Assembly (NCBI GenBank): GCA_947034885.2 | Contig: OX344752.2 | Location: 25,300,386-25,364,385 of the forward strand | Source of the DNA: Thuidium tamariscinum | Taxonomy: Eukaryota; Streptophyta; Bryopsida; Hypnales; Thuidiaceae | Length of the DNA: 64,000 nucleotides | Direction of reading: 5' to 3' | Shown here: positions 1,119-43,244 of the stretch, in pieces | Position numbering within the stretch: position 1 is the stretch's first letter | How the letters are laid out: every line of letters begins with the position of its first letter | The notes under the pieces: model-generated | Told to the model about the DNA's origin: nothing | What the model saw: the letters and a program-made list of their open reading frames with translations, nothing else | Databases searched by the model: none | Position numbers and translations under genes: made by a program

Positions 1119-2655
1119 TTATTGGTGTGTGTAGTTTGGATTTTGTTGCAATTCGATGGTGGTGTCATGCTATAAGCATACTGTGTATATGAACTTCAAT
1201 TCGTGACCTTTGTGATCTGGATTGGTGCAGTGTGCAGTTGTTGGCCAAGTGAGATTTGAACCAAGTAATTCTAGTTTTTGCTATGACTAAGAGTGAATTT
1301 GGGGATAGAGGTAAATTGAAAGATTATTTGGTTAAGGATTTCACAGTTGATTGTTTATCTCTTACATTGTCTACCTTGTTTGCTAAATTTATCTCTTTCA
1401 CATTTATCTTTTACTTTTTGTGTCTTCATGTTATAAAAGGATGAGAGGGTCTGGGAAAAAGAACCAAACTCAAAAGAAGCAGAAGGTGAATGGAGAAATC
1501 AATCTAAAGAACGCTCTGAAGAGGCAAGCTGCACCAGCTGCCAAGTATCGTATTGGGCAATTTGCCTAAGTGGAAGGTACGATTAAAAAAGCAACAGGTC
1601 TTGAAGTAAAAGTCTTTGCAAAAGAATACTCAATAATTATATGTTCATTGGGACCTCACAAGACCCAATTTTGTAGCCAGAGTTCCACGTTTGTGAAAAT
1701 AGAAATGGCCAGTGGCCAATAATCAAACCACAGAGCTTCATGAGGAAGTGGAATCTCTTAAGAAGCAAGTGTTATTCTCACTACTCTTTGTACCTCTCAC
1801 AACGAGCAATTGGATACTATACATTTACATTGGAAGCGTTGGAAGCCTATTTTAGAAGAAACCCTCACCATATGTGGTCGTACCTTCATCAATAAATGTA
1901 TCGTTACTTTTTGCGCTATGGCCCGAGCTCATGGATACTTAAAGGAGGGTGACAATAGCTCCATGAAAGCATGGTTTAATTCTGTAGAGGCGGCCGAGTT
2001 TGTGGCTATAGGTTACTATTTGATGGTGATCTTTGGCAAGAGTATTTGTATCACTCTTGACATTCTCGAGAGGATGAAAGTGTTTAAATTTCTCTCAAGT
2101 GCACTTTCCAAGACCATTGCCTACTAAACAACGCATTTGAATGTTGTCCTAAGTATTTTGAAGAATCCATTCTTTCAAATCCCACAGGTTCTTGATATGT
2201 TTTAAAAGTTGTTTGTTTTATCTGCAGAAGATGTTGTAAAAGCCTTCACTATAAGAAACCTATGTTTTAAATGATGGATTTTAGGTGACACCCAATGTAG
2301 CAACCCGTGATTTTATATCTAAATTAATGCCCGCCATAACATAAAGATCTTGTAGTATTTTAAAAATAGTTTCCCCCAACCCCTTAGTAAACCATAATTT
2401 CAATACCTCTGTGAATTCACTGTGATTTTAGTGTACAACTCATAGATTAGAACTATACTAAGCATACTATGAAAAGTTCAAATTTTTGGAGGGGAATTTT
2501 GGTAAGGCTACTTTAGAAAAAAAAATTAGTATTTTTGTATACCCTTCATTATTTTTAAAGTCTAAATTAAAGCTCATTACATAGATGCTAATTTATTTTG
2601 AAGGGTTGTATAAAATTTACCTCCAACGCAATTAAAATCACCCTTCATTAAACTA
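1119..2655 (+). pseudogene. AT-rich stretch with remnants of an unidentified coding region
   Basis: Two short plus-strand open frames look protein-like. 1441-1569 begins MRGSGKKNQTQKKQK (Lys/Gln rich) and stops at a TAA. 1810-2127 contains HWKRWKPILEETLTICGRTF and ends in a hydrophobic/basic tail. They are not joined by convincing splice sites, and I do not recognise a family. They may be decayed remains of an element gene. The rest of this stretch shows nothing I can name. Confidence 0.25.
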
Positions 2656-2690
2656 ATATTTAACTAATTATGGACAAATCCATAGTCCAG
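2656..2690 (+). repeat. Left terminal inverted repeat of the giant element
   Basis: It begins ATATTTAACTAATTATGGAC and is the inverse of 19742-19797, which has a 19-bp internal duplication. Confidence 0.7.
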
Positions 2691-3012
2691 AAATAAATCG
2701 GCCGTCAGCCGATATAGTCGAATGCATAGTTTTGTGTGCCACCAGCAGTGAACAAAAATGGCTGCAACCACTAAAGAAACAACACCTGGCCCATAAAAGA
2801 GTTGAGAGCTAATAGTTTATGAAATTTTTTTATTAAATAAACACGTATGTTGTGTCCTCATTTGTGACAAAGTATCGGCTGGCGCCTGATACTGGCAGCC
2901 GATTCCTAACATCATTCACTAGAGCACCTAGATCTATGGAAGTGTCCTAACTACGTAAAGTGACAAGTGGCTACGGCATTCATCTGTATGATGAAGAGCG
3001 ACGAATTGTCGA

Positions 3013-3030
3013 CCCTAAACCCTAAACCCT
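3013..3030 (+). repeat. Short telomere-like (CCCTAAA) repeat
   Basis: CCCTAAACCCTAAACCCT is two and a half units of the Arabidopsis-type plant telomere repeat. It sits at the 3' end of the minus-strand gene model. It may be a telo-box or chance. Confidence 0.6.
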
Positions 3031-6000
3031 GAGTCCATCCGATCCAAGTAAGAAAATCGGGAGTATCAGCTGGCAGCCGATATCCCCCCCCCAAACCTCC
3101 AGAGATCAGGTCTTGCAGTGATGAGGCAGTGGACTCGATAGGACTGGCGTTGAAATCACAGTTGTTCAAATTCCTAAATAAGGGGACGAGACATGAAGGT
3201 CTTGTATCCCCCCCGATTCCACTGATACGCTGTACCGGCTGGCGTCCGACACGATGTACGGCCAATCACCAGAATATCCCTTGCCAATTTGGCTTGCCAT
3301 ACTTGATTGATTGTGCAACCTCATAGTGTAATTGTCCCGGTCTGTGTGCGCCTTTGATGTATTCTGAGACTGACTGATACTGGTGCATGGGATAAATGAA
3401 TGGAATAATATCTTTTGAAATGTTTGGAATAGCTCTACTAGTGTTCGGGAAATTGAGATCTCCCTTGAATGGTAGCGGAATATAGCACGTCGTATCCGGC
3501 GTCCTCCTGAGCGCAAGCGGGCACACATCGACGATGAGCACTTGGTCCGTGAAGCATGTAATCCTGGATGGTCTCTTAGTATGAAGTATTGAGAGCATTT
3601 TGTAGCACCATGGGAACTTGAGGCTATCTATACAGTACTCTCTGCCATAAACGAAGGCTAGGTTGTCTCTGATATGTTTTGGAAGCAAGTGCGCAAGCAG
3701 AGGCCTAAGCTGAAGTATTGGCAACCTTGACCAAATTCCTACGTGAAACTTTTGAAACAATGTCATGAACATAGCAACTAGCCTCGGCCTTTTAATGACG
3801 TTTTTGTGTGGGTCTGACTTGTCCACCTTGGTATTCGGGTCAAGATAACATAGTAGTCCCGTGACTCCTAGAACCACACATTTCTTGAACGACTGTGTAT
3901 GCCCAACGTTGGACTCCTTAATAGAAGATAAGTTAGTGGATACATGATTCCACAACATAAGCATCCGATGAAAGAAGAGCATGCAGTAGGTATCGGCTGG
4001 CAGTCGATACTGGGGCCTGACCCAATCCAGCAGTCAATAATTATTGTTGAGAAAGAAGCAGGTGCTAGATAGACGTAGAGATGATTGAGTGCCTGCCCCT
4101 ACATTATTGCAATCACTTGATTCCAATGTCCAAGACCTAATGATGAAACTCTTAAAGGAAACATTGGAATGCTTTGAGAGTGAGTGTCCCATGCGCACGC
4201 TTTGGAAAAAATCTGACTATAATGTCTTCATTACAAAAAAATGTTTAATCCATACAGAAGAAAATAATGTACAGAAGATTTAGTCTATCCGTGCTGTATC
4301 TACAGAGAATATGTACAATCTACAGAAGAGTGTGTCGGCTGGCAGCCGATACACTACGCCTCCTCCATCCCGTCGCGTCAGCTATTGAATTCCCAAGGCC
4401 TCTAGCTCCTCCTGTGAATATGGTACCTCGAATCCCTTTTGATACTTTGGTGTCACATTCACGTACTGATTATGCATAGGGGTGCCCGGCATACATCGTG
4501 CAATCCCAATGGACGAGTTCCTCTCATAGAACTCTGGGACCGTGAGTCCGGAAGACAAGAGCCGTTCAATGAACGGGATCATGGTCGCCTGGAGATAAGG
4601 CAGTTTCCCTGCCTTGAGTGATTTCTCCGAATACGTGGTGACGGGGGGCGGATGAATTGCATTATATGGCAGATTCAAAACATTCCTATATGGCTCTGAG
4701 TCCACGATCAATGAGTTGTTGATCGTGGTGCCATTATCGTACAAGGAGGATGATCCGAGAATTCTTGCGAGACGCTTCAGAAAAATTGGTCGTGATGAAT
4801 TCTAAGGGTCTCGGTAAGTACTCTCGTCACAGAACTCCTGTCCAAAGGCCAGGTAATCCTCTCCGATCTCCGGCGCCTTCCATCTAAGGTTATAAAGGCG
4901 CTGCTCGAGAGTGTTCTTGGGTAAAATCGACCAGTAGACAATCACAATGTCTTGACCCTTACAGAACATGATGAACTCTCGGAGACTTGGTCGCTCTCTC
5001 ACTGTCGACCTCTGAATCATACTCTTCCCTTTGAAAATGAGTGGCTCATAGAAAAGTAGAGTTCCGTGAACTTCAAGGAAAAGAAACAACTTCGGAGTCG
5101 CTACCTGAGCAGGGCCAGCACTGTCGGGAGTCCCTGCTTTGTCTTGTGTTTGTGGCTGGACATTCCCATTGCCAGCCTCAGATTCGATGTCGGAGGAATT
5201 CCCAGGATTGTGATAGTCATCATCTGCATTGCCAAACGAAATACATAGAACATGAGATGCTATGAACTTAGGTAGATGACGAAACATTTTTGCACTGTAT
5301 CGGCTGGCAGCCGACATAGTCGAGAGAAACTCTAGTCTGCCGAGGTAAAGGCTCCTCTTGACATGTCTACGCACGAGTCTGAGCTAGGCAGTGCTACTTA
5401 TGAACGAGCTATATAAGATACTCCACAAACATCGCGGAGCATGTCTATCGCCTACGAACCTCCAGTCTGAGTCTTCTTTTGAGATCGGGGGGGAGACATC
5501 TCCTCATTCGGGAAGTCCTGAACCCGCGCCACCGCGCCACCATCTTTTTCCTCATTGGATCGCTTCCGCTTCGGATAGATTCGAGTTGAGCGGCGCGAGT
5601 CCGCCGACTCCGACTCCTTTTCCAGCGGTGCCCCCTTGCTTCTTCCCCGTCTTGGTTCCGGGGGTGAAATCTCCATGGGTGTCGGCTGGCCGCCGACACG
5701 AATGTCGGCTATAGTCGCCGGTCGGCCAAGTGCAGTGACTCCCACCTAAGGCTCCGTCGCCGCGACGACCACTTGAGGTAGAGGGAGCCTGCTTATCTCC
5801 TCCGACGGTGGCTCAGTGTACAAATCCACAACCATTGCGAGTGATGAATTCCTGTGTGGGAGCAGTAGGGGGCGGTCCTGAATTTGAGTCGGAGGTGGAT
5901 TGAGAGAAGGCCTCGAAGATGAAGGACGTGGTTGCCGTCCCCTTCGAATGAGTGTTGCTTCCGGGGAACTGTCCTTGTCTGAGTCAATCTCAATCGTCGG

Positions 6001-9000
6001 AATTGGTGATTGCTCCTGAGACTGACCCTGCGGCCGCTGAGTTTGAGCGGCGCCCCCCGGAGCCTGGGGCAGAACGAGGCTGGACAACGGCCGCGGTTGC
6101 TGAGTTGATTGCGCAGGTGCCGGTTGCCCCTCCTGGTCTATGACCGCCAGCGTCACCTGAGAAGGTCCCAGGGAATCCATGGAGAGGAGGTTCATTCCCC
6201 TCACACGTTCCTTGGCCTTCTCCAATCCGTCCTCCTCCCGAATGAACTCCATGACAGCTCGTCCATTCCTCTACGAAGCCATGGAGTGCAAGTCAGCAAT
6301 CTATTGTATCGGCTGCCAACCGACAGAGAGTGACTTCCTGTGAGCACTGCAAGTGTGAGGATGGGATAAGAAAACGTACCAGAGCGATCTCCGTGATGTT
6401 ATCGCCTCCCCAGATGTTGATGATGGTGGCATCCTTTGCTTTGAGGGTGGGTAGCATGAATTTTTCGAGCTGTCCATGGCCAACCCCGCACATCCCACCA
6501 TTCCAGTCGACCTCTCCCTCGACGTCGAAATTAAACAAGTCCAGCGCCTTGTTGATCCCAGTAAAGCGCTTGAAGATTGGGAAAAGACTGAGCCTGTCCT
6601 CGGGCTTCGGGAAGGTCAAGGAGAGAGTGACCAAAGGCCTGGACTCAATCTCGACCTTCTGAAAGCCTCCCCGGGGAGATGGCTAGTAGTACACTGCATG
6701 GTAGTACCAGTCGGACGAGGATGAGTGCGCTGTCGTGGCGACAGAATCACGGAACCGCGAGTTCCTGATGAGGAGCATTGGCAGGGGGATGTAAAGTTCG
6801 CCGTCTTCGTCATCTGCCCCGTCCGGAATTTCTGCTGCGAACGATAGATCGAGCAGATCGTTCCTGTTCATCCCAAGAGGTTCCCCCATATTTGTATATC
6901 CGAAGAGGACCAGGAATTTCTTGTCCTCGGGTTCCAGCGCCATCGTCCCCTTGGATTGACGAACGAATTCGACCACCTCTGCAATACTCTACTCGACATG
7001 GCATTCGTATTGCAGGTCGCTTGACTTGCCTACCGTGGTAGGCAAGTGGACTTTGACGTAGCTTGCCAAAGTCGTGAAGAAGACCCCCGGCGCCTTGCCA
7101 TTCGTGGACTTGTCCGTGGTTGGATTCATGGGGTTGACTCTCCCCTTCAACTAGTTGCTTGCGTCCATGAACTTCATCATGTCCTTCCAGACATTTCGGA
7201 CTACGGCCGCTGAGTACCCCTCCTTGTCAGCCAACTCCTTCCAATCCTCATCCGTGTATGGGGTCCAGCCCGCGTCCTTGCAAGGAAGGGGATACTTCTT
7301 TCTGGTCCACATGATCTCGTTTATGACGATCCTGTCGAGCTTCTTGTCCTTGCACCAGTCGAAGAGAGTGATCTTCCCCGAGGACTTTGCCTTGGCGGTG
7401 TTCTTGATGCTCACGCGGAGGGCAACAATCTCCCGCCCCAGCTCGCACAGATCTGAATCACGAAGCCCCAGCGTTGGCGTGAGATCCGTTTTCGTGATGT
7501 GTGTGAGCGGTTTCCGGTTGACCAGGAGATTGGGCACAGTCCCGTCATCGCCAATGAGTTCCCCGTTCTCCCACGCATCGAACACCTCCGTCCACAGCAC
7601 CCAAGTGTTCTCCTTGATGAAGATAAGTGGCAACTTGGAGGACACCTTTTCCTCCACGAAGTGCGCCATCACCTTCAGCTTCGCAGCCTGCCACAGTTCA
7701 ACTACAATGTTTAGAACAAAGCACACATGTATCGGCTGGCAGCCGATACATAACGTATTCAGCAAATAGCATAACAAAGCAAATAAGCGTGGGTAATACC
7801 TCGAATGCTGGTGTCGGCTTGCCTCCTCCACGATGCGGCTCTGGGCATCCCGCCTTCACCCACGCCGCTCTCCCCATCTCTGCGCAGGATCTGAAGTTCT
7901 CCTTCGCTACCTTCTCAGCGATGTTGAGATTGAGGGCATTGGAGACTCTGACGAGTGTGTCCGGGTCTCTACTAAACACCGGAATCACCTTGAACTCCAG
8001 GAGGTCGGTTTTGGCCTCAGAGCCGTTGGAATACTACTCGGCCAGTTTTCGGCAGGCCGTCACCGTGTGTTGTCCGCCAATGATGTACCAGTGCACATTT
8101 GGCGCCTTCCACTACGGCATTGAGATGCCGTTGACAACAGTGAATTCTTCCTGCCCGGCACACTTGTCCATCACTGCGTCCAACTCTTTGTCCTTCGGCA
8201 ATGGAGCCCGCTTCAGAGGAACCCCATGTATTTCCGACTTCTTCTTGATTAACCCATATCCCTTATACATGGTCTTCATCTGAAATGACAGAAGGCCGAA
8301 CCATTAATGACAAGTTACACATGTCGGCTGCCAGCCGATACAAGAAATCAAATGACTTTGACCAACGAGAGATGCAAGTGATCATTCAAATACTTGTCCA
8401 AGTTGGTCCTTCGCAATCTTTCGGTACTTGAGCTCGTCCGGTGCAATGTGCAACTTGCTCGAGTGAATGACCCCCGGAAGACGCTGCTTCTTGTAAGGAA
8501 ACGCGTGCAGCAGCCCCGTCTCCAACACCTGGTAAATAGCGTTCACCTCGTTCTCCTTAGTCTTCGTGGTGAGGTGATTTCCACGGCGGAGTGCTTCGTC
8601 CAGTGTGAGCTTCAGCGGCTTCGTCGGATCATCCTTGGCCTTTCCTTTCCGCTTTGGTTTGGTCGGGGACCCCGGCTCCTCAAGATCAGTTTCAGCGACC
8701 TCGGCCACTGTCGCCGCCACCAGCTTCCTCTCCGCGGGGACCTTCTTCTTCCCCTTCTCCAGCTCACGAGCGACGAACGCATTGTGCTCATCGCGCTCCT
8801 GCTTCAGGCACTTCCACCCCTGGATGAGCTCCTCTGCAGTCGATGGTGTGTTCCCGGCAAATGTCATGCCCATGGACATGGACTTTTGTCCGCAGACCTC
8901 CTCCGTACACTTGTTCACCGGCAGCTCCACCGCGAAATAATCGGGGACTCCGTTCGTGCTTGCCAATGGCATCAAGCATATCATCACATGCACGGACTCG

Positions 9001-9593
9001 CCTTAAGCCCTGACGGACAACACACTTCCCTTGCCAGGGGTCATGTTCCCCTTCAACTTGAAGGAGCATACGATGTCCACTTTCTTGTCGGGTGACTGCC
9101 TCCAGCACAGGCCCCCTTCCTGGATGGCCTCGATTCCTCGCCATGTTGCTCGTGGTGGAAACCCGTCCCCCCAAATCCCAGAGTTTGGGATTTGCTCACC
9201 CAGAATTCGGGCCAAGAGAGTCGGTTTCCTACAAAACGGTACAATTGAATGCTCAGTAAGTTCTCACTATGTACCTCCACTTTGTGCATCTACTGTATCG
9301 GCGGCCAACCAATACAGCCACTGAGTCCCTAAACCCTACCTTCAAAAGTCATTTATAGATTATCGTATGACCACTGACCCAGAATTATATCGGCTGCCAA
9401 CCGACATCGTATGAGCTCAGGATTCTACTAAGTGCTCCCATGTTTGTCGACTGCCAACTGATATAGCAACCCACAGGTGCCTCTAACTCTCAATGGCTGT
9501 CCTGAAAAATATTTGACAAATGATAATGTATCAGCTGGCAGCCGATACATGTATAGAAAAGTACCTCTCTGTCGCCAAACTAGAGGTCGCCAT
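3015..9593 (-). CDS. Ten-exon element gene: ParB-like motif plus two FCP1/NIF-like segments; interrupted in frame by UAR
   Basis: Proposed exons: 9593-9565 (ATG GCG start), 9228-8394, 8279-7800, 7687-6380, 6270-5746, 5670-5460, 5223-4358, 3916-3270, 3221-3097, 3028-3015. All joins are phase-consistent and give 1,680 codons. Good splice sites include the donor after GCTCTG (GTACGT) at 6379 and acceptors TTTTGTAG at 9229 and CATTTCAG at 8280. Each of the nine introns holds the palindrome. In-frame stops are TAA 9003-9005 and TAG at 8112, 8034, 7151, 6989, 6683, 5746, 4802 and 4382 (window left ends). There is no in-frame TGA. I cannot tell whether these mark decay or recoding. The gene is divergent from the transposase-like gene and inside the same TIRs. 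The middle (about residues 880-1110) is low-complexity, rich in Gln, Pro and Ser. The 3' end is the least certain part. Confidence 0.55.
3270..3916 (-). other. FCP1/NIF-like (HAD fold) segment 2
   Basis: A second copy of the same layout: KCVVLGVTGLLCYL; KRPRLVAMFMTLF; HVGIWSRLPILQL; a stretch with LAFVYGREYC; then VLIVDVCPLALRRTPD and a YIP-PF tail. The first motif has G-V-T where an active enzyme has DxD, so it also looks catalytically dead. It joins segment 1 through an intron of about 441 bp (3917-4357) holding two palindromes. It may be one protein with two HAD modules or two fused genes. Confidence 0.5.
4382..5223 (-). other. FCP1/NIF-like (HAD fold) segment 1
   Basis: In order: a strand KLFLFLEVHGTLLF; RPSLREFIMFC; IVIVYWSILPKNTLEQRL; then SSRPIFLKRL; then SLIVDSEPYRNVLNLPYNAI. 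This is the layout of NLI-interacting-factor/FCP1 phosphatases (LDLDGTL, then WSS..., then VDDSP). The catalytic DxD is replaced by E-V-H and the third-motif DD by D-S. If the assignment is right, the domain is probably not an active Asp-phosphatase. An in-frame TAG (4802-4804) splits it. Confidence 0.55.
5298..9548. repeat. Palindrome copies 7-15, all in predicted introns
   Basis: Copies lie at 5298-5316, 5681-5699, 6307-6325, 7730-7749, 8322-8341, 9296-9315, 9388-9406, 9445-9464 and 9529-9548. They fall in predicted introns 5224-5459, 5671-5745, 6271-6379, 7688-7799, 8280-8393 and 9229-9564 (the last four copies). The copy at 5681 is changed symmetrically in both arms (GTCGGC...GCCGAC), so pairing is kept. 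Confidence 0.9.
7800..8279 (-). other. Exon with ParB/sulfiredoxin-like motif
   Basis: This exon reads KAPNVHWYIIGGQHTVTACRK at about residues 345-365 of the gene model. GGQHT followed by a small-residue helix resembles the conserved G-x-H/R-x-x-A motif of ParB/Srx-fold domains. The preceding exon has the expected run-in (a stretch naming residues to be looked up, then INGI-like strands). Two TAG codons lie close on either side (8112-8114 and 8034-8036). The match is from memory, and one motif is weak support. The downstream part (VFSRDPDTLVRVSNALNLN) is unassigned. Confidence 0.35.
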
Positions 9594-10264
9594 CGTGTGA
9601 GCGCTCCTAACTCCACCCTCGAGCTAAGAGTTTTTCACACGAGTCTTGTGTCTAATTGAGTTTTCTTTCTAATTGGGTATGAAAAGAAAGCCTTCCAAGC
9701 AATGAATTCTTTTAGTCACGTCTTTTAAGTGTTTCTAATCTAATTTCGTGGTTATAATTCTATCTTTTTTAGTCTAAAATTCAGCCAAGCAATCCTACTC
9801 TATTCTATCTTATAGTTTTGTCTAAATCTAATGCCAAGCATTTGGTAAAAAGAAACTTAACAGTAAAATAACGAGAATGAAAATCAAATGTGAGCGGTTT
9901 ACCTCCTCTGCGTAAATCTCCATGGTCCCGTCGTCAAACATCATCATGTGTAAATATTCCCCTACGACCTCGCCATCGAAATCATCCCAGCTCTCCATCT
10001 AATCCATAATAATTCTCACGTTGTTGGTCAATTAATTCTGTCCTGATTAAAAAGGAAATTAAATGTTATGTAGTGCTAATTTAATTGCGTAATTCTGTTA
10101 ATTCCTAATTCCCCGGTAATTAAGAAATACTGCAATTTAATTAGTCTACCTAGTTTGGTTAGCAAATATTCTACTCTAATGAAATAAATGAAAGTTAAAG
10201 GTTGGTTGTTTTAGTGTTTTTTCCTTTGGTCCTAGATTAATATCCAAAATCCAAATTGATTTAA

Positions 10265-10496
10265 TTATTTAAATCGGAAATTGACATCAAATCTTTTTCA
10301 AATCTAATTAATTTTTGAATTTGTATTAATTTTAAAGAAATTGGTTGGCAATTTGTTTGTTTCCCTTTTGGCTTATTAGAATATTTTAATCAAAAAATCA
10401 TCTTCAAATCTTTTCAAATCTAATTAATTTTTGAATTTGTGTTAATTCTAAAGAAATTGGTTGTCAATTTGTTTCTTTCTTTTTGGCTTATTAGAC
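10265..10496 (+). repeat. Tandem duplication, 2 x 116 bp
   Basis: A segment containing TCAAATCTAATTAATTTTTG recurs at an offset of 116 bp (from 10298 and from 10414). Both copies run on to GGCTTATTAGA with a few mismatches. Confidence 0.75.
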
Positions 10497-11659
10497 CTAA
10501 TAAAACAAAACCAACAAAATCCAAACCTTTTAAGAATCTAATTAAGAACTACCGACCAAAGAATGTAGAACATACTCCCTAGAATAAGTGCCAATTCAAT
10601 AGTAAGATTCTAAAACAATTAGTTTTAAAAGGGCGTGGGGTCAACGTTGAGAATAAAGAATTAGATTTCAATAGTAAGATTCTTAGGAAATTGATTTTTT
10701 AATGCCAAATTCTCTCACGTGGTTGTCTCTCCCTTAATCTTCCTTCCTTTAATTCCTTCCGTCTCTCTCAATTTTGCATTTAGATTGTGCAAATTTTGTT
10801 GAGAGTTTGGCTATGGAGGTTGGAGGGAATAGAGGTTCGTGTGGTGAAATTCCAAAGTTACAAATGTTGGATTTTTGATACCAAATCAAATGGAGAATGG
10901 GATAGTACTCTACTTCCTTTGATTTTTTATTTAAACCCAATTTTTATAACACTACCTTAAGAGTGGAGTTTGCAAGTCAACTTTGTTAGGAAAATACTTA
11001 CTTGTATGTGTGATTGTTGGTGTTTTCGTTAGTGAGTTTGGGACTCTTAGTTTGTGAATTTGGAACTCAAAATGGCCTGGCCTGGACCAGAGCCCCAGCC
11101 CGATCGCATAGAGCCCCAGCTCGATCGCACAGAGCCCAACCCGATCACACAGAGCCTCAGCCCGTCACACAGAGCCCAGCCGGCGCCAGTGGCCGGGTCG
11201 CCCGCCCCTTGCTGCCGGTCGCCTGCCCTTGCCGTTGGTCTCTCTCCGCTCCAGGCCGCTGGTCTGCCTTCGGGCTGGTCCCTGGACTTGGAATTTTTGG
11301 TTTTTTGGACTCTAATTCTTGGACTAAATCTATACTATCTGATGGCTATTGCTAGTGTCTCCTATGTTTGCAATTGGTACTAAGTAATAATCACGGGGTC
11401 CTTACCCACCATATACTAATCTCAATTGAAAAGATAGATGAGGTCTCTCATGTTCAAGCGTTTAAAGAAAGTGGTATAGGCCTTCGAATCTTGAGGTTTA
11501 AAGCCTTTTTATCCTTTCTCGGGTCAACCTCGGGTGGACCAATTGCAAATAACTTCCCCCTTTTATTGAGGAGTTTAATTCTTCCAAGATGTGAGTGATG
11601 GTTCAAAGCTTCGCCGTCTTACGAGTTTTTCCCAGAGTATCTTAAGAATTTTATTCGCA

Positions 11660-11779
11660 AAAGGAGGTACACATGACAGTGTTTAAACCGAACTTTCACT
11701 TTAAATTCTTAAAATTTCTTAGTATTTCAAGATCTTACAACCAAAGGAGGTACACATGACAGTGTTTAAACCGAACTTT
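11660..11779 (+). repeat. 37-bp direct repeat, offset 83 bp
   Basis: An identical 37-bp word beginning AAAGGAGGTACACATGACAG occurs at 11660-11696 and 11743-11779. Confidence 0.85.
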
Positions 11780-13615
11780 GGCTTCCAATGCTTGAAATTT
11801 CCACAAGTTGTTGGTCCGCTAGGTGGTAGAGTAACCTTTATAAAAAAAATGTGAATCTTATGAATTAAATGAAGGGGCCCTAAGCCTTCAAATGTGTGAC
11901 AAATACAAAACTTGGCCAAAAACTTGGTCCAAGTGATGCCCCGACCACGCCGGTGGCATAAATGAAGAGAGTAACGAAGTGTCGGTGCGAGAAATAAGGG
12001 TACTGGCAACCTCGAGGGGGGCCCTTATATACCCGTGGCCGGGCCCCTCTCGGTAATTGCTAGTGAAAACACTTTGTTACTTTCTACCCTAAACTACCCT
12101 AATGTAATTCCAAAATATTAGTTGTTTAATGGTGGAAATTTGTAAAAACATCCCCATTTGGCAAAAGAAATCTTGGCCAAATCAAATCCAAGATCTTAAC
12201 CCAAAATATTTTGGAATTAACCCTAATTTATGTAGATATTTTGCAAATTAACCAAAAGTCATTTTGAAAATTGTCTTTCTTTAGCTCAAAGATGGCTTTT
12301 TACGCAAGAAAGAGATCTTGACCAAATCCAATCTTTGATTTTCCAAGAGATATTTCCAAAATCACTTCTAATTAACCGCAATTAACGATTAAAAAGTCAA
12401 ACTAAGAGCTGACCCTCTCTATCTTTTGGGGAACAACTCGAAACGAAAAACCGTCTGCGCCATTGTCTTCAGAAGACCCCAATTAGCCTAAGGGACCCCT
12501 TACCCCTCACTCCTAGGCCATTTGCGCGCTCAAATTGGAATTACGGTAACTCCAATTAAAAGTCAAAAATCTAACTTTTAGGATTTGCGCATTTTGATGA
12601 ATCTGTCAGGCCAAGGTTGTTAGGAATGTCCGTGAGAGTAAGGAATGATTCCTTATTTGCGACAATCGGACATCATTCGCTCCTGATACGCCGGTCAACC
12701 CGCTGCCAACTTGTAACTTCTAGTGAATTTCGATGTCGATGCTGGTTTTGGTAGTTGGGAATGTCGGAATGTCTTCAAACTTGACCGGGTGCTTATTAAG
12801 CACACAAAAACCTATCCTAATTTTTAGTGAGATTTTACCGCATCATACGTAATTTCTATGATTTTACGAACATTTCTATGTGCAGTTGACTTCCCATGGA
12901 GTCAACATGGAATTTCGGAAAAATACGAAATAAATTGGGTAACATCTAGGACACTCCTAGATTCTTGGTGTAAGTCCCACGCAACCTTGCACCTTTCTAA
13001 TTTTAGTAATTCGGAATTACTTTGCCCAATTGGACAATTTAATTCTCGATGCCTGGGAATCTTGGACAATTGTTTGATTCTTGTTCGCTCCTGGCATGCT
13101 CCTACCCTTGGAACACCTCTCTGTAGTCTTCAATCTCCAATCCTCCATCTTGTATCTCGTGAAGTTCGAATTCTCCAAATCCGTTGTAGTGGTTTTACCT
13201 TTAAATCCAATTTGTTCCAAAATTGAACTTAAGCCCTGGTAACTCTTCCATGCTCGTAGTAGACACCTTTAGCTTAGTCAGTATGTCACGTGCATCCTTA
13301 AAAGGTTGACTTTGCACAGACATTCGCTAGGACTAACTGACTCTCTATTCCTTATTTCTCTCGGAATTACTAAATCTTTACATAAACTTGCTTTGGAGAC
13401 TTAGAATGATTCAAATTTTTAGGATTAGGAATTTTCCACCTTCTAAATTGGTTTTCTACCATTTTGGCATAGACTGACACCAAAACTCCCTCAACATTCT
13501 TTTTATGTCTTTTTCTTGAATATTTTGACTAATTTTCGCTATTTCATCGCGAAAAATGGACCCAGAGTCCTGAGTGCCATCTCGAGGGCTCACACATCGC
13601 CAAAGGAATGACGCT

Positions 13616-13745
13616 TGTCGACTGCTCAAAAAGACTTGTCGGCTGCTGAAGAAAAACGCCTGCCTCGCACTCCTTCTCTATCGGCTGCCCATAAACGCCT
13701 ATCGGCTGCTCCTCTACTCTACGAGGGGGTGTCAGCTGCAAGCTG
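13616..13745 (+). repeat. Cluster of half-palindromes
   Basis: Five partial copies of the left palindrome arm lie in about 125 bp: TGTCGACTGC, TGTCGGCTGC, TATCGGCTGC (twice) and TGTCAGCTGC. None has its matching right arm. The cluster lies about 1 kb upstream of the transposase-like gene. Confidence 0.7.
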
Positions 13746-13751
13746 GAAGGC

Positions 13752-13811
13752 AAGAGGGAGAGGGAGAGAGGGAGAGCGAGAGAGAGAGAGGGAGAGAGAG
13801 AGGGAGCAGGA
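13752..13811 (+). repeat. GA-rich microsatellite tract
   Basis: An almost pure run of GA and GGA units (CT on the other strand). Such tracts are common near plant promoters. It lies between the half-palindrome cluster and the plus-strand gene. Confidence 0.8.
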
Positions 13812-14652
13812 GACGTAAATGGCAAATGTGAGAAAATGAAAGTGGCCTGGGGGATATACCCTCGGCTGCCACCCGAAGGGCACAATCATGACAAACCGAG
13901 TCCGTTCATCCTAAGATTTCATCCATCGCCGCTTTTCATCCAAAGATTTCATCCATCGCCCGCTTTCCATCCGCTACCGTATACTCCACATCCAGCGAAG
14001 TACATACAAGTGACGAACACTCATTGCGATGATGCGTACGTTTCCAACCACGATCTCCTCATGCACGGACTTGTCTCTCTTGCAATCACCACAACTTCAT
14101 CCTCTTTCAAATTCAAATTTCAGGCGCCAAATTATGGCACAAGTTTGCTCACCTAGGATCTGATCTTGGAGGACTTCATTTTCCATTTCCATTTGCCCCA
14201 CACACACACTCAGAGCGTCCAAGAACCGTCAGGGAATTGCAGTGGCTTCTTGTGGAATGTTTAGAAAGGATGCAACGTTAGAGAGGGAATTTAGTAGACC
14301 TCAGTCCAGTGCAGAGCTTACGCATTCAGTAGTCCTCAGGTTCAGGAAGCGCTCTCGGACAGTTGTTGTTTGGCGTTCAGGCTTACGTAGGAAATGCAGT
14401 AGGATTTGAATTGCTGGGAGCCAAATTTCAATTGCAATAGGATTTGAATTGCATTTTCGAAAATTAGTTGTCTGTCAGAGGTTCTTGATTTCCTATTTGG
14501 TTGCATTTGTGCTTCCATTTCATGATTCAACCTGGTCCGAGCATCTGTGGACAGTGCGTAGATCATAGAAATCGAAAAATCTAGCTTCGTGCATGATCCC
14601 CGGAGTTCTAGCTGTACGGTCCTGCCCCTGTGCTTGACCGTACGGACAATGG
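13812..14652. other. Presumed 5' region of the transposase-like gene
   Basis: No gene is supported. Overlapping short frames show no family resemblance. A small imperfect repeat (CATCCATCGCC-like) is seen at 13915-13970. Confidence 0.35.
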
Positions 14653-14802
14653 TATCGGCTGCCAGCCGATACCGATTTCCGTATCTGCTAGGTCGTTAAG
14701 CATTTGATACACAAACGTATCGGCTGCCAGCCGATAAGGTCATCACGGGTTTGACGGAAGCAGAAATTCCCACATTTTGGGTTCTCACCCCGATTTCGAA
14801 TC

Positions 14803-17800
14803 ATGAGTGGCTCTGATGACTGGACCTCGAGTGCCAGTCCTATTGAAGCATTCACAAGAAATGGCGGCTCGAGAAGACTGAAACTACACAAGGGAGTTGT
14901 TGTGGCTCTCACACTGGAGGGATTATACTACGTTGGAAGGGCGGTCGTAGAAAGGGTGGTCAGCTGTGATCCATACCTCGTACGCGTTCATGTCCTAGAT
15001 GTTCCAAACAACCTCGATATGCCTCTTCCGTTTCCGGAGGGAGACATGGTTTTCCTAAGACACTGCCCGGGAAGGTCAATCGTGTGGGAAGCAGGCAACG
15101 TTTATCCCCACGCAGAGGCGGAAGGGTCTTCTGCTGCTGCTGTCGGCCGGCAGCCGATACAAGTGGTCACTGATGAGAAACCCATACAACAATTCCTGTC
15201 ACTCATTGTCAATATGGATGTGACACTTCTCCAGACTCTAGGCGACACTCTGTTCTATGCTGGTGTAGGTACAATTGTAGAGTGCTCTCCGAAGGGGTAT
15301 TGGGGAGGCTTCCGCATTCCACACAGCTTCTTCCTCGTTGTGAAGCTCCTACACGTCGTCGATGATTTCAAGAATCACACTGCCTATTGCGAGATTCCTG
15401 ATTTCATCACACTCAAACGTTGTGTAGGATACAAAATACTCTGGAGTGGTTACAAGGTCAGACCAATACAGACCTCTGTCCCCATGACCAACATTGTCGG
15501 CTACCAGCCGACAGGGGCACCTACGACCAATTTTATGCAGGCTCAGGTCGATGGGAACTGTGAGAGTGGTGGAAGTTCGAACAATGTGCAGGTAGAACTC
15601 GGTGATCCGGGATCACAGCAGGTACTTCCTACTGCATCAGACGAAGACGAGCGAGATGATAGACTCTATTCGTCTGACGATGACAGCCGCGGGCCTGCAC
15701 ACGACCATCGCAATGTTCATGGTTACACCACCTCTGGCACTGGCGCGTCCGACGCAAGTGTTGTTGACAACATGGATCATTCGGACGCGTTTAGAGATGG
15801 TACTCAAAGGGGAGACAATGCCGATCCGGATGGAGTGCAAGCTAGACTTCCAATCCCGGATAGACCGCTCTGGAGAAATCAATACTGTCAACTTCTCAAT
15901 GACGACTTCTCGGTACTGGGAAGAGCCATGATCCAAGTCTGCCTACCAGATGAGGCTTGCGATGATGGCGTCCTGGGCGATACGGATGTTGGGGTCATGT
16001 TCGTATCAGACAATCACGAACTGCAAATGACAACCATGCACTGGAGGCTCACACATACAAGATTGGAGGGGGGAAGGCTACTATTAGAAATTGTCACGCT
16101 TTGCTCTCAGGCTGCTCTGTTGAAGGAGTCGGACGATGACGGAATGCAGGGGGTACCGAGGAATCCATACCGCTCTGTGCGTAGAAGGGTCATTCCCAAG
16201 GATCTCGAAAGCCAGTCCAGGTTGCAAAGCAAAACCTCGGAGGCGGAAGTACGTAAGGTCAGCTCACAGAAGTGCTGTAAGCTCAGATGCTGCCAGACGT
16301 TTCCCTGGGAGGACACCAGGTCTATACGACGGAAGTTCTTCGCTTGCACATTCGAGAGTAGGAGGGAGGTAGCGTATGCGGTGCAGAGTCAACTTCATGC
16401 AGGGATTATTCCAGGAAAAAAATTCATCACTCTTGCTAATAGAGACGTCTGCGAGAACGCATGGTATATCATTCACGGGGTATCCAGGTCGGCCTATCAT
16501 GTTTACAAGGCTGCGGCCGCCGGAGGATCCGTCAACGAGTCGCATGGAAATGCGGGGGCTCGACGGCCACGGCCACAAACAATACAAGTTCAAGCAACAC
16601 TCAAAACAATCATCGACGAGAATGCAGACAAGATGCCAAACGAGTTCAGAATGGTTGGAAATAAACGCGTCAACAATCTCAAGGTCCTACCCTCTGCAAT
16701 GAATTGGGATCACATCCGCGAACAAGTCAATTATGTAAGTCCAACATCTGCCTCCTCGTCTACAGTATAAATGTCCCTCTATCGGCTGCCAGCCGATACA
16801 ATCAAGGCTAGACTTAGAATCTAGGAGCCATAGATCTTTCCTTTCTGTAGGCCGGCATTTGCAGTTCTGTCGACTGCCAGCCGATACAACTCTATTGTCT
16901 TCCATGGAAACTCATCCATGTAGTCATGTTCTTCAGGTCAATGGAATATGCAATATGAAGCCGGTATCCCAGTCTGCTATCAACCGACTTCGAAATGCTC
17001 ATTTCAAAAACGTAGAGGTCAAGGCAGTAGGGAGCAATTTCTCAAAATGTACAGAATGTGACTTCCTCGTAGAGTTCATTGCAAAGTATCCCAGAGGTTG
17101 TGATGAGTGGCAGGCACCCGTCGACGACAGAGAGAGACATCTCAATTACCAACGCGCTTGTAGAAATGTATACAGCGGATGGACCGCGCAGTCAGTGCAG
17201 AATCCATCAGAGTTCCTCTGCATTGTTCATGACAAAATGGACACCACAAAGACTGCCATTCCCAGGATGCAGCGCATCACAAAGGCCACCGCAGGACTAG
17301 GCCAAATTCCAATCTCATGTACTGGAATGCTCATACATAGACATGGAGATGGTGCATATGCACATTACTCAACATCACTCTGGCCGGGGGATTCAAATTT
17401 CACTATTTCATCCATATGCAGGGTACTCAGGGCCCTAGAACTACCTCCTGTGAGGGAGTCAAAGATACTCTTCTCCACTCCACCGCTAAACAGCTTCTTC
17501 AAGGCTCTGCTACATGGCAAATCCAGATGCAACTCGTCAATCCCGCAGTCCTCGAACAAGGTCACAGACGCACCAACACCAGGTCGACCTCAGGTCCCAC
17601 TGCCCAAAAAACTCTTCTTGCAACTCGACAATTCGGCGAAGGACAACAAGAATAGATTCCTCATGGCTTTCTGCTCACTGCTCACTGCCAGGCGCATATT
17701 CAAAGAAGTTTCGGTAGGATTCCTCATTGTTGGCCATACGCACGAAGACATTGACGCGCACTTCAGTTACCTCTCAAAACTCATCAAAAGGAAGAACACA

Positions 17801-18169
17801 TACGTTCTGGCGGATCTCATGAAGGCGTTCATGGACTCACAGAAAACGGTAGCCTTCATTCCAGAGTTCGTGCAAGAGGTGGCAGACTTCAAATCATACT
17901 TCAGGGGATTCCATCATGATGGGGTCAACAAAATCATAGGGCTCAGAGATAAACACCTATTCAAGTTCTACGTCGTAGAGGATGGCGTGGATCGGGGATG
18001 GCCGGTCATGAGGTACAAGGTCAGGGCCACGGATTCTTCATGGCTCCCTCCTGGACCACCCGTCAAAATGTGGACAGCGGACGAAAATGGTCAACCCAAC
18101 ATTCCTCAGGGGGACCCTCGACCTGTGCCTTTCAAGGCACTCTGGGGGAATGTGGACATTAATCCATGA
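14803..18169 (+). CDS. DUF7869-type putative transposase (four exons)
   Basis: Exons 14803-15099, 15235-15456, 15541-16734, 16937-18169 give 981 residues, all joined in phase 0. The introns (135, 84 and 202 bp) each hold the palindrome. The first two stay open in frame, so an unspliced reading of 655 codons also exists. The middle has a CC-x3-CC cluster and an R-x-x-F, VCENAWYIIHGVS-like block. The last exon has a CxxC (KCTECDF), then HDKMDTTKTAIPRM (Asp about 670 and 673), LFLQLDNSAKDNKN (Asp about 802) and GHTHEDIDAHFS (Glu/Asp 841-844). This order matches the uncharacterised DUF7869 family recalled from green-lineage and other repeat-rich genomes. The spacing of acidic residues fits an RNase H-like DDE/D nuclease, but that is inference. 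It is the likely mobility protein of the enclosing TIR element. Confidence 0.7.
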
Positions 18170-18952
18170 AAGAGAAACGCTGAAAAAGAAGTCGCAAGGG
18201 CCACAGAGTGCAATGAGAAACAGACATTCATCAAAAACGGAATCGCTAAATTCATTGAATTCTGGAAATCCGGAATGGCCAGAGACAGACGATACGCACA
18301 GGAAATGACAGGCTGTGTGGCTTACTGGGAAAGAATTCAAGCAGAGATCAATTCACCGCTGCCTCAAACTCTTGCAGTGCTTCAAGAAGGATTATGGCCG
18401 CTCTCTGACTGGACAAGGGATCATGCATCCACCTCGATAGACAAGGGGGCGCAGGAGAATTATTCAATGGACACCACTCCGGAGGACGAAGGGGACACCA
18501 CTCCATACTGCGGACCTACCAAGGACAGGCCAAGATTGAGATTCAATCCATTCAGGGATGTTCTGCTCGGAGACTTTCTGCTCTGTCGACCATGTCACAA
18601 CAATCACCTGCCTGTCTGGCTGGGACGGGTACTCGAATGTGTTGATATGTCTCCGGGGCCCACCTATGGAAACTTTAAAATTGAGTGGTGGACTCCCATG
18701 AAAGCAAAGAGGGAGTCAAAAGCGCTCATTGCGAGGGAGTGCTGGACACGAAGATGGCACAAGGAACTCTGTCTTCCGCAAATGGTCCATGTCAACATTG
18801 TCTTGTACTCGCACAGAATGCCCTCACATGCAAAGAAAGGACCTCTCACATCTCATGTCATCCCGGAGGCATCCGTTGCTGCTGCTATTGCGAATCTAGA
18901 GGCCGCGGGCGCAACTCTCGACAGAGATGCAGACGATGCCGGAGACGAGTAA
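18170..18952 (+). pseudogene. C-terminal part of the transposase-like protein beyond an in-frame TGA
   Basis: The frame of the last exon continues open for 260 codons after TGA 18167-18169 and ends at TAA 18950-18952. It looks coding: a basic/acidic helix, then FNPFRDVLLGDFLLCRP, LPVWLGRVLE and FKIEWWTP, a small beta-barrel layout like BAH/chromo-type modules. A very similar tail is usual at the end of DUF7869 proteins as I recall them. The TGA is therefore probably a nonsense mutation, for example from CGA or TGG, though a true stop followed by a decayed tail is possible. Confidence 0.55.
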
Positions 18953-19741
18953 GGATACATCGCCTCGGACCTATCGGCTGCCAACCGATATAGCATTCGG
19001 GGCCTCGAGTTCTGCCACCAGCACATTACAACACGGATACGACTTCTCGATGTAGGTGTCGGCTGCCAACCGATACCATGGGCTTAGCTGCATCACGATC
19101 GCGCGGTTCGTCAGCAGAATGTTCAGTTCAACATGATTACATGCTGGTCCTCAATTTTTACTCATTTCAGGATGTGCATTCTTATCTTTTTCGGTGGGCC
19201 TTTATGTTATTTTAGGGGGTGCCTTCATATTTCTTAGGATGGTACTATAAGTCTTATGACTAGGCAGTTCGGTCATTTTCCGTATTTGTCGGCTGGCTGC
19301 CGACAGGGCTAGCCGGAGTACGTTACTCTCTTAGGTGATACTTTGTCCTCTTCGGTCGTTAGGTCCTTGCATTTCTCAGTTGCCACGAGTTTATGTACTT
19401 TCTTGACATATTTATCTGAATCTCCTATGGGGACCATGTTGCAACTGTTTTATCTTCAGTGCACAAACGGTGCAGGCATTTCTCTACCTGTCATGCTTGT
19501 TGTCCTCTTTTCCTCTTCTTACGCACTTTACTTTGTTTTCTTATCGGCTGCCAGCCTATACATGTCATTGGCCACGGGATGGGTGCACGGTTATAGGCAC
19601 CGCTTCTGCTACTCCACTAAAAACGGTCCAACATTCAACAATCCTCTTCTTTCTTATGCAACTAGTTATTCTCAACAAGGTGTGGGTGGGCTGCCGACAC
19701 TTTTCCATCATTTGAAGCGTCTTTTCCACGTTCTCAGGTGG
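18953..19741. other. 3' flank of the transposase-like gene inside the element
   Basis: It holds four full and one half palindrome and no convincing gene. A Ser/Leu-rich frame at 19343-19789 is not recognisable. Confidence 0.4.
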
Positions 19742-19797
19742 CTATGGACTATGAATTTGTCCATAATTCATGCAATTGTCCATAATTAGTTAAATAT
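19742..19797 (-). repeat. Right terminal inverted repeat of the giant element
   Basis: The outer 22 bp (19776-19797) is the exact inverse of 2656-2677. The word TTGTCCATAATT occurs twice in tandem (from 19757 and from 19776). The inner part CTATGGACTATGAAT matches the inner left end with small changes. Confidence 0.7.
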
Positions 19798-22780
19798 AGG
19801 TTATTAGTTCGCACGTCGACATCAAAGAAACGGGGAGTGCACCCCCCAGAATTGAAGGTGTGAACAAGGAATATCTTTCATATGTGCTAAAATTTAGGAC
19901 ATTTGGAAGTATAAATCAGAAAGTTTGAAATTAGTTTGTAGAATTATCTAGAGGTGAAATGCTTTGAATCTTTCTATTTTGATCAATTAGTCTTGAAAAG
20001 TTATGAAGAGTTATTGTTTATGGGCAATTAAAGATTATTTATTCTAAAATAAATTGTGAAGTCCTTTATTTTACTCAAATTTTAATATTTTTTGAAAAAA
20101 ATAAAATTGTAGGATTAAAATTTTTTATTACAACATTGTGACCATTGGGTTTGACATTTTTTAATTCCATAACTAAATTATTTACAATTTTGTATTTTGA
20201 ATCACTCTCTACTTCTTTCCACTTATTCTTTTTTTCCTATATATTGTACAATTTCAAATGATTTGAAACTTTGAAGAATGTAGCCATCTTGCCTTGAAAA
20301 ATGAACAAAAAGAAGCACCAATATTTTGGACATTTTTTTGAACAAATGTGAACTTGTGAAGTGGAGTTGCATGGTTTTTGGAAGGGAAAAAAAAGGATTT
20401 CTATGACTTTGAAAGCTCACATCTTGAAATCTATGCAATGTAAATTTTTGAAGTTTTTTCTACATATTTTCAAGTCAACATACTACAAGATCTTATAGTT
20501 ATATGTGTCCAAAAAGTCGTTTTTTCCAAAATTTGGTACTTGTGCTAAAGTGGTAGTTTTAGAGCATTTTTGGTGGAAATACATTTAAGGAAGTGAAGGG
20601 ATTAAGAAATTTTCATATTTAAAACAATACATCTCAATAATTTGACATATAATAATTGAAAAATATTATAAAACTTAGTTTTATGACTATCTTAAAGTTT
20701 GATCCAAGATGAAAAGAATCTATGCTTTGGAATGATTGTAAAAAACACTTATACTATTTCTAATCACATCCTATTTATTTATTTTTTGGCCATAGCTTCT
20801 GTATTCTCACTTTAAATGACTCAAGATCTATAGGTAAGATATTCATGACTATTGTGCGCCTTTGACTAGTTTTTTTTTGTACTTTTCAAAAATGTTTTGC
20901 TATCCAAAAATATCCCCCAATTTTGAAGTTACATTGGCTAATTTTGGGGGGGTAATATTTAATATCCAATAAAAAAAATTTGAACTAAAAGTTGGCAAAG
21001 ATGCTTTTTTAGTTTAACAACTAATAAATTGAGTATAAAGAAAAGTTGCAATTTGCAATTTACTATACATTAGCATAGAAATTTAAAGAAAAAAGTTAGT
21101 TGTGATTTGAAAGAAAATTAATATTAAAGTTAGCCATGCCTAAACTTTGTTTTTGTTCATTGTAAATTTGAATTACTTTATATTGTTGTACACAAAAATT
21201 AAAGGAAGTTTCCATTTTATAGAATGTAAAATATTAACAATATGACAAATATACAAATGATATTGGTTCTCACCATATTTGAATTTTTTGGAATTTGAGA
21301 GCATGGAATTTCATTAGTCATTGTAGAAAGTCTATAGGTTGCAACATAGACCATTCTTCCATCTTTTTATCCTTTAAAATACTTGTTGAATAGAACAATG
21401 CATTTAATTTATGTTTTATAGCTACGTGGTGCTTTTGTACATTTAATTTTTTGTACTAAGACAAGGGTTAATAATACACATAATTGATAGAAAAATCCAA
21501 AAAATTAAATTTTTATTGTCCACATCATAAAAATTTGATTTTTGCCAAAAATTACAATAACTTTCATCAAATTTTTAGTTCTTTTAATGATATTGGCAAT
21601 GATAGTTTGGAATAATAATTTAGGATTTTTTTCAACTGTAATTGCTAATTTTGGACTAGCTATTACGGTCAGTTATTTTTCAACATAGCTACTGGCTAAT
21701 TTAAAACAATAGATTTTTTTAAACATTGGTATTAACCTTAAATGCTCATGGCGTTTTTTGAGCTTCTAGGAATTTGTTCTAAGTTGAACAAAAATCCAAA
21801 ATTTTGATAAGCTTTATCAATTAAAGAAAAATTTAATCATACAAATTCAAACTAGATATGTTAAAGATTACTTAGGAAAAACAAAACAATATAGTTTATA
21901 GATTGAAAGGTTATAATGTTTGAGCATGAGGGTATTAAAATTACTTTTGTGAGTTGAAGTCTTTCAATCCCCTCTTCACATGTCACATCTAAAAAGTTGT
22001 TTAGGTTTTATTTACCTTCAAAGTTTTGCAAACACAAGATTTGGGTGTGTTAGGCATTTAGAGTTTAACTCCTACATGCTTAAGATTTTTTTTGGTCTTT
22101 TTATAATTTGGTTTGAAATTAACAAAAATTGAACATTTTGATCATTTTTTTTCAATTTTTTTAGAATTGTAAACATACAAATGCAAACTAGCCATGTTAG
22201 AAATTACATTGGAAAAGAAAACCCAACAATATTAATTATAGATTGAAAGATTATAATGTTTGATCACAAATTAGGGTGTCAAAACTATGAAATTGATTTG
22301 GAGTCTTTCAATCCTCTTTTCACATGTCAAATCTAAAAATATGGTAAAAAAAATATGAGGTTAAAGGGCTTAACATTCATAATCACAATCAATTTATGGC
22401 TTCTCAAAATCTACTCTACAATTTTTTTAAATGACCTTCTAATGTGATTTTTTCTCCAAGATCTAGTGTATTTGAGGCTCACTTTTGAGAGCCCTCAACA
22501 CTATGGAAAGTCAAGATTGCAATGGCCCCCCTTGCACAAAATCTTGTACAAGAAAATCATAATCAATTACTTTCAAGATTGGATTTTTGATACTAAAACT
22601 AGACTTCAAAAACGAATTTTTTAAATATGCAAACTTCTAAAAATATCAACTTGGTTAGGTTTGGTTCAACTTTGAGTTTTGCAAATACCAACTTTGGACA
22701 CCTCAGGCATTTAGAGGTTAAGAGAGATTCAGTGGAGAGACATTCTGGCTATGGGATCAAAGGCTTTTAATAAGGGGAGT
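19798..22780. repeat. AT-rich repeat DNA; 19900-20600 related to 53480-54370
   Basis: No gene. About 20080-20280 matches 53850-54040 with substitutions (shared: a CTACTTCTTTC word, a TTGTACAATTTCAAATGAT word, and order preserved). Two similar blocks near 21880-21990 and 22190-22330 share ATAGATTGAAAGATTATAATG and TCTTTCAATCC, indicating an internal duplication. Confidence 0.55.
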
Positions 22781-42757: not shown

Positions 42758-43244
42758 AATGGTTGTTTTTGCATACATAGATGACCAACAAATTCAAGAG
42801 TGTTGACATATTCATGGCCTCAAAGAACTGGCCTTGGTTGGCAACGCCATTGCCATATATAGCCATCGTCACCCCTTCTACCTTCAAGTACTTATGTACA
42901 AAGGCTAGCTTGGCGCCTAATGATGTTTGTGCCCCGACAATTCCATTTCTGCCATAATACCCTCTCTTCTTGTTGTACATGTGCATGGAGCCCCCTTTCC
43001 CTAAAGAACACCCGTCTTTCCGCCCTATGAGCTGAGCAAAAACCTTATACACTATGCCACCGCGATCAAGATGTATGTAGTGGTCCCTATACAATGTGAT
43101 TATGCAATCTTTTTCATTCAAAGCCGCTTCCATGCCCACACACACAACCTCTTGGCCATCAGACAAATGGAAGAACCTCCGAATGAACTTCTGCTTATAC
43201 ATTGAGTCCGCTGCTATCTCCATCTGCCTCATCACAAACATCAT
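42758..43244 (-). pseudogene. Single exon of pyruvate dehydrogenase E1 alpha
   Basis: 162 residues read without a stop: MRQMEIAADSMYKQKFIRRF, SDGQEVVCVGMEAAL, YRDHYIHLDRGG, CSLGKGGSMHMY, YYGRNGIVGAQTSLGAKLAF and AIYGNGVANQGQFFEAMN. This is the thiamine-diphosphate-binding half of the mitochondrial-type E1 alpha subunit. It is flanked by an intact acceptor (TTCTTCTAG) and donor (GTAAGT), so it is a genomic exon copy rather than a retrocopy. The GDG of the cofactor motif is GNG (Asp to Asn), and several other conserved residues differ. I see no neighbouring exons, so it is probably a dead fragment. Confidence 0.75.

Follow-up and report, generated by a model that had tools for sequence, protein, structure and literature searches.

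VANDAL transposons are Mutator-like elements. In Arabidopsis, published accounts describe short, family-specific VANDAL motifs in non-coding DNA, introns included, that are bound by the element-encoded VANC proteins, were amplified by tandem duplication and diverge between families (PMC5735166, PMC10398659); the VANC motifs YAGTATTAY and AGTTGTCC/AC are reported to be arrayed in one orientation (PMC5735166). We analysed a 64-kb stretch (the window) of the genome of the moss Thuidium tamariscinum (363 Mb in 19 contigs), which carries a terminal inverted repeat (TIR) transposon with a DUF7869 transposase gene, a second gene on the minus strand and about 25 copies of a 19-bp palindrome, TATCGGCTGSCAGCCGATA. 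Judged from sequence comparison, these palindromes are probably family-private recognition sites of a dimeric protein, in all likelihood encoded by the element, and would mark the element's own DNA. As far as the published accounts describe VANDAL21/VANC21 and VANDAL6/VANC6, the moss element shares with them a family-specific motif enriched in non-coding element DNA, introns included, and the tandem duplication of that motif: here a 48-bp palindrome array in the sister family C (stretch L041) and, in the window's own subfamily A, a 35-bp duplication at 5298 that gives seven of the nine sister copies a second site. It differs in that its sites are palindromes of 18-21 bp, a feature that the main text of PMC5735166 does not mention, and in that its DUF7869 transposase, for which Pfam lists no Mutator-like element (MULE) domain, goes with a 4-bp target site duplication (TSD). 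The moss element thus resembles a VANDAL in anatomy yet is not one.

The palindrome is confined to the element. At up to three mismatches it was found 23 times in the whole window, always within 2696-19560 and never in 100 shuffles, and at up to four mismatches 25 times in the first 24 kb, again exclusively inside the element; the 44 kb to the right of the element held no match at up to four mismatches. An earlier inspection of the letters (the sequence-only reading), which had counted about 25 copies restricted to the element, was borne out in this respect. Genome-wide, 751 copies were present at up to two mismatches, and the motif written backwards gave none. A protein search with the DUF7869 region of the window returned 104 matches (102 of 686 candidates scored), sorted by identity into subfamilies A (46), A-like (5), C (15), D (29) and E (9), while a search with the E protein returned 106 (105 of 721 candidates scored). 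For each motif the 50 genomic sites listed are the first along the contigs and hence a non-random sample. Among these, 44 of the 50 exact A sites lay within 15 kb of a subfamily A DUF7869 match, with 0.9% expected by chance. The whole-genome search proposed with the sequence-only reading thus placed the palindromes in clusters at subfamily A elements, a distribution not unrelated to the element family.

Furthermore, several sister families carry palindromes of their own. The C palindrome, ATCSGGAGATCTCCSGAT, has 24 sites at up to four mismatches in the subfamily C stretch and 412 copies in the genome (control 9); among those listed, 39 of 50 lay within 15 kb and 45 of 50 within 20 kb of a C match, again with 0.9% expected. 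The E palindrome, TATCTTCGASTCGAAGATA, has 14 sites in one E stretch (L043) and six in another (L045) at up to four mismatches and 1742 genomic copies (control 3); 17 of the 50 listed sites were within 15 kb of E matches in the list made with the window protein and 33 of 50 in that made with the E protein (0.9% expected). A palindrome of a third kind, TTTAGCTCGASTCGAGCTAAA, occurs seven times at up to five mismatches in L003, a contig of a cyanobacterial metagenome-assembled genome (MAG), presumably a contaminant, whose transposase is 38% identical. Tests across families did not detect the A, C or E motif outside its own family, aside from four A-type sites in L044, a decayed relative with 65% identity; the only cross-family matches were two single weak ones, of the L003 motif in L004 and of a subfamily D candidate in L045. 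De novo palindrome clustering of one stretch per family gave counts of 15 for the window element, eight for C, eight for E, three for L003 and two each for D and L005 (shuffle maximum 1), two for L044 (shuffle maximum 2), and one each for L004 and for the part of the window that lies outside the element. Subfamily A has two A-type sites in the intron at window 16735-16936, and subfamily C has two C-type sites in the homologous region. In the viral contigs searched, two palindrome matches in two contigs were taken as chance, and DUF7869 relatives were not found there.

The letters of the palindrome are conserved selectively. We compared nine sister copies, leaving out the window copy, in which the sites had been chosen. 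In the non-coding sites, the half-sites showed five non-deamination changes in 2569 cells versus 523 in 31495 cells of other non-coding DNA (Fisher p = 2e-12), a roughly nine-fold resistance. Neither the 5-nt centre (11/917, p = 0.36) nor the 10-nt flanks (96/3637) were conserved. The arm letters are kept, and variation is seen at the inner pair 8/12. A dimeric protein would be expected to leave such a pattern, in which two 7-bp halves hardly change around a free centre, whereas a structural hairpin would keep pairing and not letters.

We infer that a dimeric protein reads two 7-bp half-sites, TRTCGGC and GCCGAYA, 5 bp apart, and that the sites are spread wherever the transposon tolerates them, in flanks, in introns and in a few protein linkers. 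The reader would most likely be encoded by the transposon itself, and many occupied sites would mark the element's own DNA; such marking would most likely serve to maintain transcription or to prevent silencing, much as VANC proteins do on VANDAL elements, or else to control transposition. By this analogy, self-marking against silencing by an element-encoded dimer is the likeliest extension of the observations. Among the four explanations that the sequence-only reading had offered, binding sites for an element-encoded dimeric protein fit best, given the half-sites, the private palindromes and the VANC/VANDAL precedent, with binding by an element protein being the part that we infer.

A somewhat improbable alternative is that the transposase itself binds the sites and builds a transposition complex on them, as it does on the subterminal repeats of CACTA or Mutator-like elements. 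In CACTA (En/Spm) elements, the element-encoded TnpA binds many short subterminal repeats and thereby influences methylation, and the moss palindromes would be read in a similar way. Yet CACTA sites are subterminal, and those of the moss element occur throughout its 13 kb, deep introns included, without concentration at the ends, and their number and spacing vary between families. The element is also no CACTA element by its ends: these have the termini CACTA/G and a 3-bp TSD, while here the termini are AACTAATATTTAAC / AACCTATATTTAAC (starting AACTAA or AACCTA) with a 4-bp TSD. Membership in piggyBac or Kolobok, described as having a TTAA-specific 4-bp TSD (PMC9587614), was rejected, as the TSDs here are varied and none is TTAA.

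Several observations weigh against recognition by a protector dimer of the element. The copies share ancestry and their cells are dependent, so that the p-values overstate independence. Changes of the type C>T/G>A affect 0.0245 of half-site cells versus 0.0114-0.0117 of other non-coding cells (uncorrected for base content), with rates of 0.034 versus 0.041 at CpG and 0.040 versus 0.027 at other C/G; they are thus not reduced, and today's copies have the appearance of methylated DNA in decay, not of protected DNA. Among the sites listed, 17 of 50 for E and six of 50 for A are more than 15 kb away from any DUF7869 match. In the one 9.9-kb stretch of subfamily D, no repeated palindrome of its own was found, even by a looser search; L004 shows no palindrome family, and the four copies in L005 are all confined to a tandem repeat of two units. 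The scanned stretches of the second gene matched no Pfam family, ParB included. Moreover, the two arms show no significant association at positions 2/18 (11 A-T, 3 A-C, 6 G-T and 4 G-C pairs in 24 of the 25 sites, site 5298 being dropped for alignment gaps; Fisher p = 0.39), which leaves the matching changes in both arms reported by the sequence-only reading unsupported.

The C>T decay, which suggests methylation, and the two sites upstream of the transposase start would also suit targets of host silencing or of a host transcription factor, carried passively or as a promoter. We consider this unlikely, since three families of one genome each have their own palindrome, which is hard to reconcile with one host factor, and since selection would not be expected to preserve a silencing target within the element.

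The sequence-only reading had proposed 12 introns, each tagged by a palindrome. We tested these against sister copies and homologous proteins and scored their splice sites over up to 10 copies. Six introns are supported (5224-5459, 6271-6379, 7688-7799, 8280-8393, 9229-9564 and 16735-16936), with GT in 10 of 10 copies and AG in 8-10 of 10, in addition to a needed frame change, in-frame stops or indels that are not multiples of three, and all six contain one to four sites. The segment 3917-4357 is non-coding, with two sites, GT in eight and AG in all of nine covering copies, and a stop just before the proposed donor in all nine; it may be an intron or a spacer between two genes. Our confidence in recognition by a dimer is unaffected by its status, because it does not rest on this gap. 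Both 15100-15234 and 15457-15540 have a length divisible by three, an open frame and no indels in nine sister copies. Wherever one of the 15 homologous proteins extends to the first segment, its alignment continues across it (window AAAVGRQPIQVVTDEKPIQQFL, Physcomitrium WCVGGPPIPVLEDEKPIGQFL), and the second is a variable linker. Codon-position bias is weak inside these short segments, and the coding call is made because of frame, indels and, for the first only, homology; as GT (9/10 and 10/10 copies) and AG (10/10 and 8/10) are mostly present at these two plus-strand segments, optional splicing may occur at both. The segment 5671-5745 is likewise open, divisible by three and free of indels, with AG in three of 10 copies, and its removal would leave an adjacent stop in the window copy, so that all three segments look coding. 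The remaining two lie beyond a stop conserved in seven of seven covering copies: 3222-3269 (46-48 nt) has GT in seven and AG in six of seven and is followed by a stretch with indels that are not multiples of three, and 3029-3096 has GT in the window copy alone. The notion that every intron is tagged hence holds for the six supported introns; of the other proposed introns, three look coding, one is the intron or spacer gap and two lie past the stop. The statement that exons hold no palindrome fails, as three of 25 sites are coding under the present gene model. The three coding palindromes (15141, 15495 and 5680) are read in one frame, as VGxQP(T/I) linkers, and relatives (homologues P0122-P0136) have (V/I)GGPP(T/I).

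The sites clearly avoid coding DNA: 22 of 25 lie in the 4222 non-coding bases (32% of the element) and three in the 8931 coding bases (binomial p = 1e-8). In subfamily C, one of 24 sites is in an open coding frame. Enrichment in introns beyond non-coding DNA as such is modest, with 10 of the 22 non-coding sites in the six supported introns (p = 0.041) and a chance of 0.017 that all six are hit if the 22 sites are random in non-coding DNA; with 3917-4357 as a seventh intron, 12 of 22 sites are intronic (p = 0.067; all hit, p = 0.016). The intron pattern is thus mostly a by-product of the avoidance of coding DNA. Caution is called for with motifs that seem tied to introns, since in an element dense with genes a large share of the free space is intronic, and this by itself can produce such an association.

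The complete occupancy of the supported introns is nonetheless what pre-mRNA hairpins aiding splicing or RNA stability would give, and four of six relatives of the second gene read past exon ends into palindrome-type peptides at the same introns (P0137, P0138 and P0139 at 6271-6379; P0142 at 7688-7799 and 8280-8393), P0140 and P0141 having no such peptides. We judge hairpins very unlikely, and this suggestion of the sequence-only reading unsupported, because sites also occur in coding sequence and in flanks outside the gene models, because the arm letters rather than their pairing are conserved, and because the transposase genes of E and L003, single uninterrupted frames of 974 and 947 codons, contain no site and have palindromes in their flanks only. 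That introner-like units created the introns by insertion, also suggested earlier, is extremely improbable and found no support: introners likewise repeat a sequence in many introns, and relatives P0040 and P0048 (by pattern) and P0019 (by eye) have an extra intron-like stretch with palindrome-like peptides after VMRYK where the window has none, but in a repeat search of the element the sequence shared around sites never exceeded about 28 nt (families of 25-28 nt), only the site is common, and it occurs in exons, in flanks and around intronless single-frame genes as well.

Returning to recognition by an element-encoded dimer, a decidedly doubtful generalisation would be that DUF7869 transposons form a large class of many families, each with its own element-wide palindromic address read by an element-encoded dimer, so that a family would recognise and protect no copies but its own, and the address would diverge together with its reader. 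The reader could be the GQH protein, loading and spreading as ParB does. In bacteria, the palindromic parS sites of about 16 bp are read by a ParB dimer, and the GQH motif of the second gene presumably resembles ParB/DGQHR proteins; the likeness is limited to this motif and to the palindromic sites, as the scanned parts of the second gene had no Pfam match to ParB and we know of no partition function in a eukaryotic transposon. A VANC-like gene was not recognised in the element. In the literature searched, DUF7869 is not mentioned and no description of such a system was found. If the palindromes are indeed recognition sites, the moss element would add an independent case of transposons with dense family-specific recognition sites, beyond Mutator-like elements and beyond flowering plants. 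With several families and different palindromes in one genome, motifs and their readers lend themselves to direct comparison, exchange and testing, and the self-recognition and silencing escape of selfish DNA become experimentally accessible.

Features of the subfamily A element in the window (positions in the 64-kb window; a dot marks features without strand)
Feature	Position	Strand	Remark
Whole TIR transposon copy, subfamily A	2651..19802	.	17,152 bp, nested insertion included
Left 4-bp TSD ATTA	2647..2650	.	right copy at 19803-19806
Left terminal inverted repeat AACTAATATTTAACTAATTATGGAC	2651..2675	+	
Right terminal inverted repeat	19778..19802	-	
Palindromes 2696, 2873, 3064, 3233	2696..3251	.	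between left end and last conserved stop
NIF-like open reading frame (ORF; PF03031, E = 9e-5)	3266..3982	-	last exon of second gene or separate gene
Palindromes 3991 and 4333	3991..4351	-	non-coding gap 3917-4357 (intron or spacer)
Second gene	4382..9593	-	five supported introns, several in-frame stops in window copy
Palindrome in intron 5224-5459	5298..5316	-	
Palindrome, looks coding	5680..5698	-	peptide VGGQPT
Palindrome in intron 6271-6379	6307..6325	-	
Palindrome in intron 7688-7799	7730..7748	-	
Palindrome in intron 8280-8393	8322..8340	-	
Palindromes 9296, 9388, 9445, 9529	9296..9547	-	all four in intron 9229-9564
Nested insertion, foreign to element	9596..13594	.	just upstream of second gene's start; 0 palindrome matches
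Palindromes 14653 and 14718	14653..14736	+	upstream of transposase start
Transposase exon 1	14803..16734	+	644 codons, single open frame, two coding palindromes
Palindrome, looks coding	15141..15159	+	peptide VGRQPI
Palindrome, looks coding	15495..15513	+	peptide VGYQPT
Supported intron with palindromes 16780 and 16868	16735..16936	+	
Transposase exon 2	16937..18955	+	encodes DUF7869 (PF25273) and the C-terminal region; a single in-frame stop in window copy
Palindromes 18972, 19057, 19287, 19542	18972..19560	.	right flank

The giant transposon recognised by the sequence-only reading is real, and its limits, given there as 2698..19561, are corrected to 2651-19802 by its ends and 4-bp TSD. Six further full-length subfamily A copies measure 13.0-13.4 kb, and six of the seven full-length copies, the window's among them, have a perfect 4-bp TSD (ATTA, TCAC, GCTT, AAAG, TCTT and AAGA). 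The 4-kb insertion at 9596-13594 is missing in all ten other copies fetched; its ends read TGTGAGC...GCTCACA, with an apparent CATCG duplication at the junctions. Pfam found DUF7869 (E down to 5e-46) and listed no MULE domain in the transposases of the window, L003 and L043, and the transposase is putatively DDE-like. Its named relatives among the matches are mosses only, Physcomitrium patens and Ceratodon purpureus. Neither a safe fold match nor a safe match to a PDB sequence was obtained for it, and its first structure model was poor (predicted local distance difference test score, pLDDT, 49.6). On the minus strand, NIF-like (HAD phosphatase-type) stretches were recognised at 3270-3916, above the Pfam cut-off, and at 4358-5223 by eye only, and both apparently miss the catalytic aspartates (by eye). 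Along the earlier model of the second gene, eight of 10 in-frame stops are TAG, of which 10 at least two may be natural ends; for the second gene and position 18167, stops rich in TAG together with the C>T excess fit methylation-driven decay.

Some minor observations concern the other families. The subfamily D candidate TCCGTCGGATCCGACGGA (L042:1123 and 1378) was rejected as another repeat, with none of 50 listed sites near a DUF7869 match; it has 261 genomic copies, 16 of the 50 listed form eight pairs 10.6-11.9 kb apart, and these are probably the ends of another repeat family. The MAG contig L005, whose DUF7869 relative is very distant, has an 89-bp tandem repeat at 4972-5149 with palindromes GTGTTCGNNNNCGAACRC. 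A further motif, TRTCGGCGGWCCGCCGAYA, was deduced from the peptides of 142 proteins, the window's own included, with patterns written after some of these related proteins had been viewed: frame-2 peptides occurred 17 times versus a shuffle mean of 0.08 and the frame-1 GPP form 17 times versus 0.19, while the QP form (5 versus 1.1, shuffle maximum 6) and frame 3 (2 versus 0.42) were not significant alone. The motif was not found in the viral contigs. In subfamily E, the open frame that has the GQH motif contains one E site. Outside the element, an ORF at 42669-43244 of the window, which matches the E1 dehydrogenase domain PF00676 (E = 6.5e-44), is probably an ordinary host gene exon. Finally, among the matches listed, 45 of the 106 to the E transposase fall on contig C11 (17.5 Mb, less than 5% of the genome), which could represent a sex chromosome or else some other chromosome rich in such elements.

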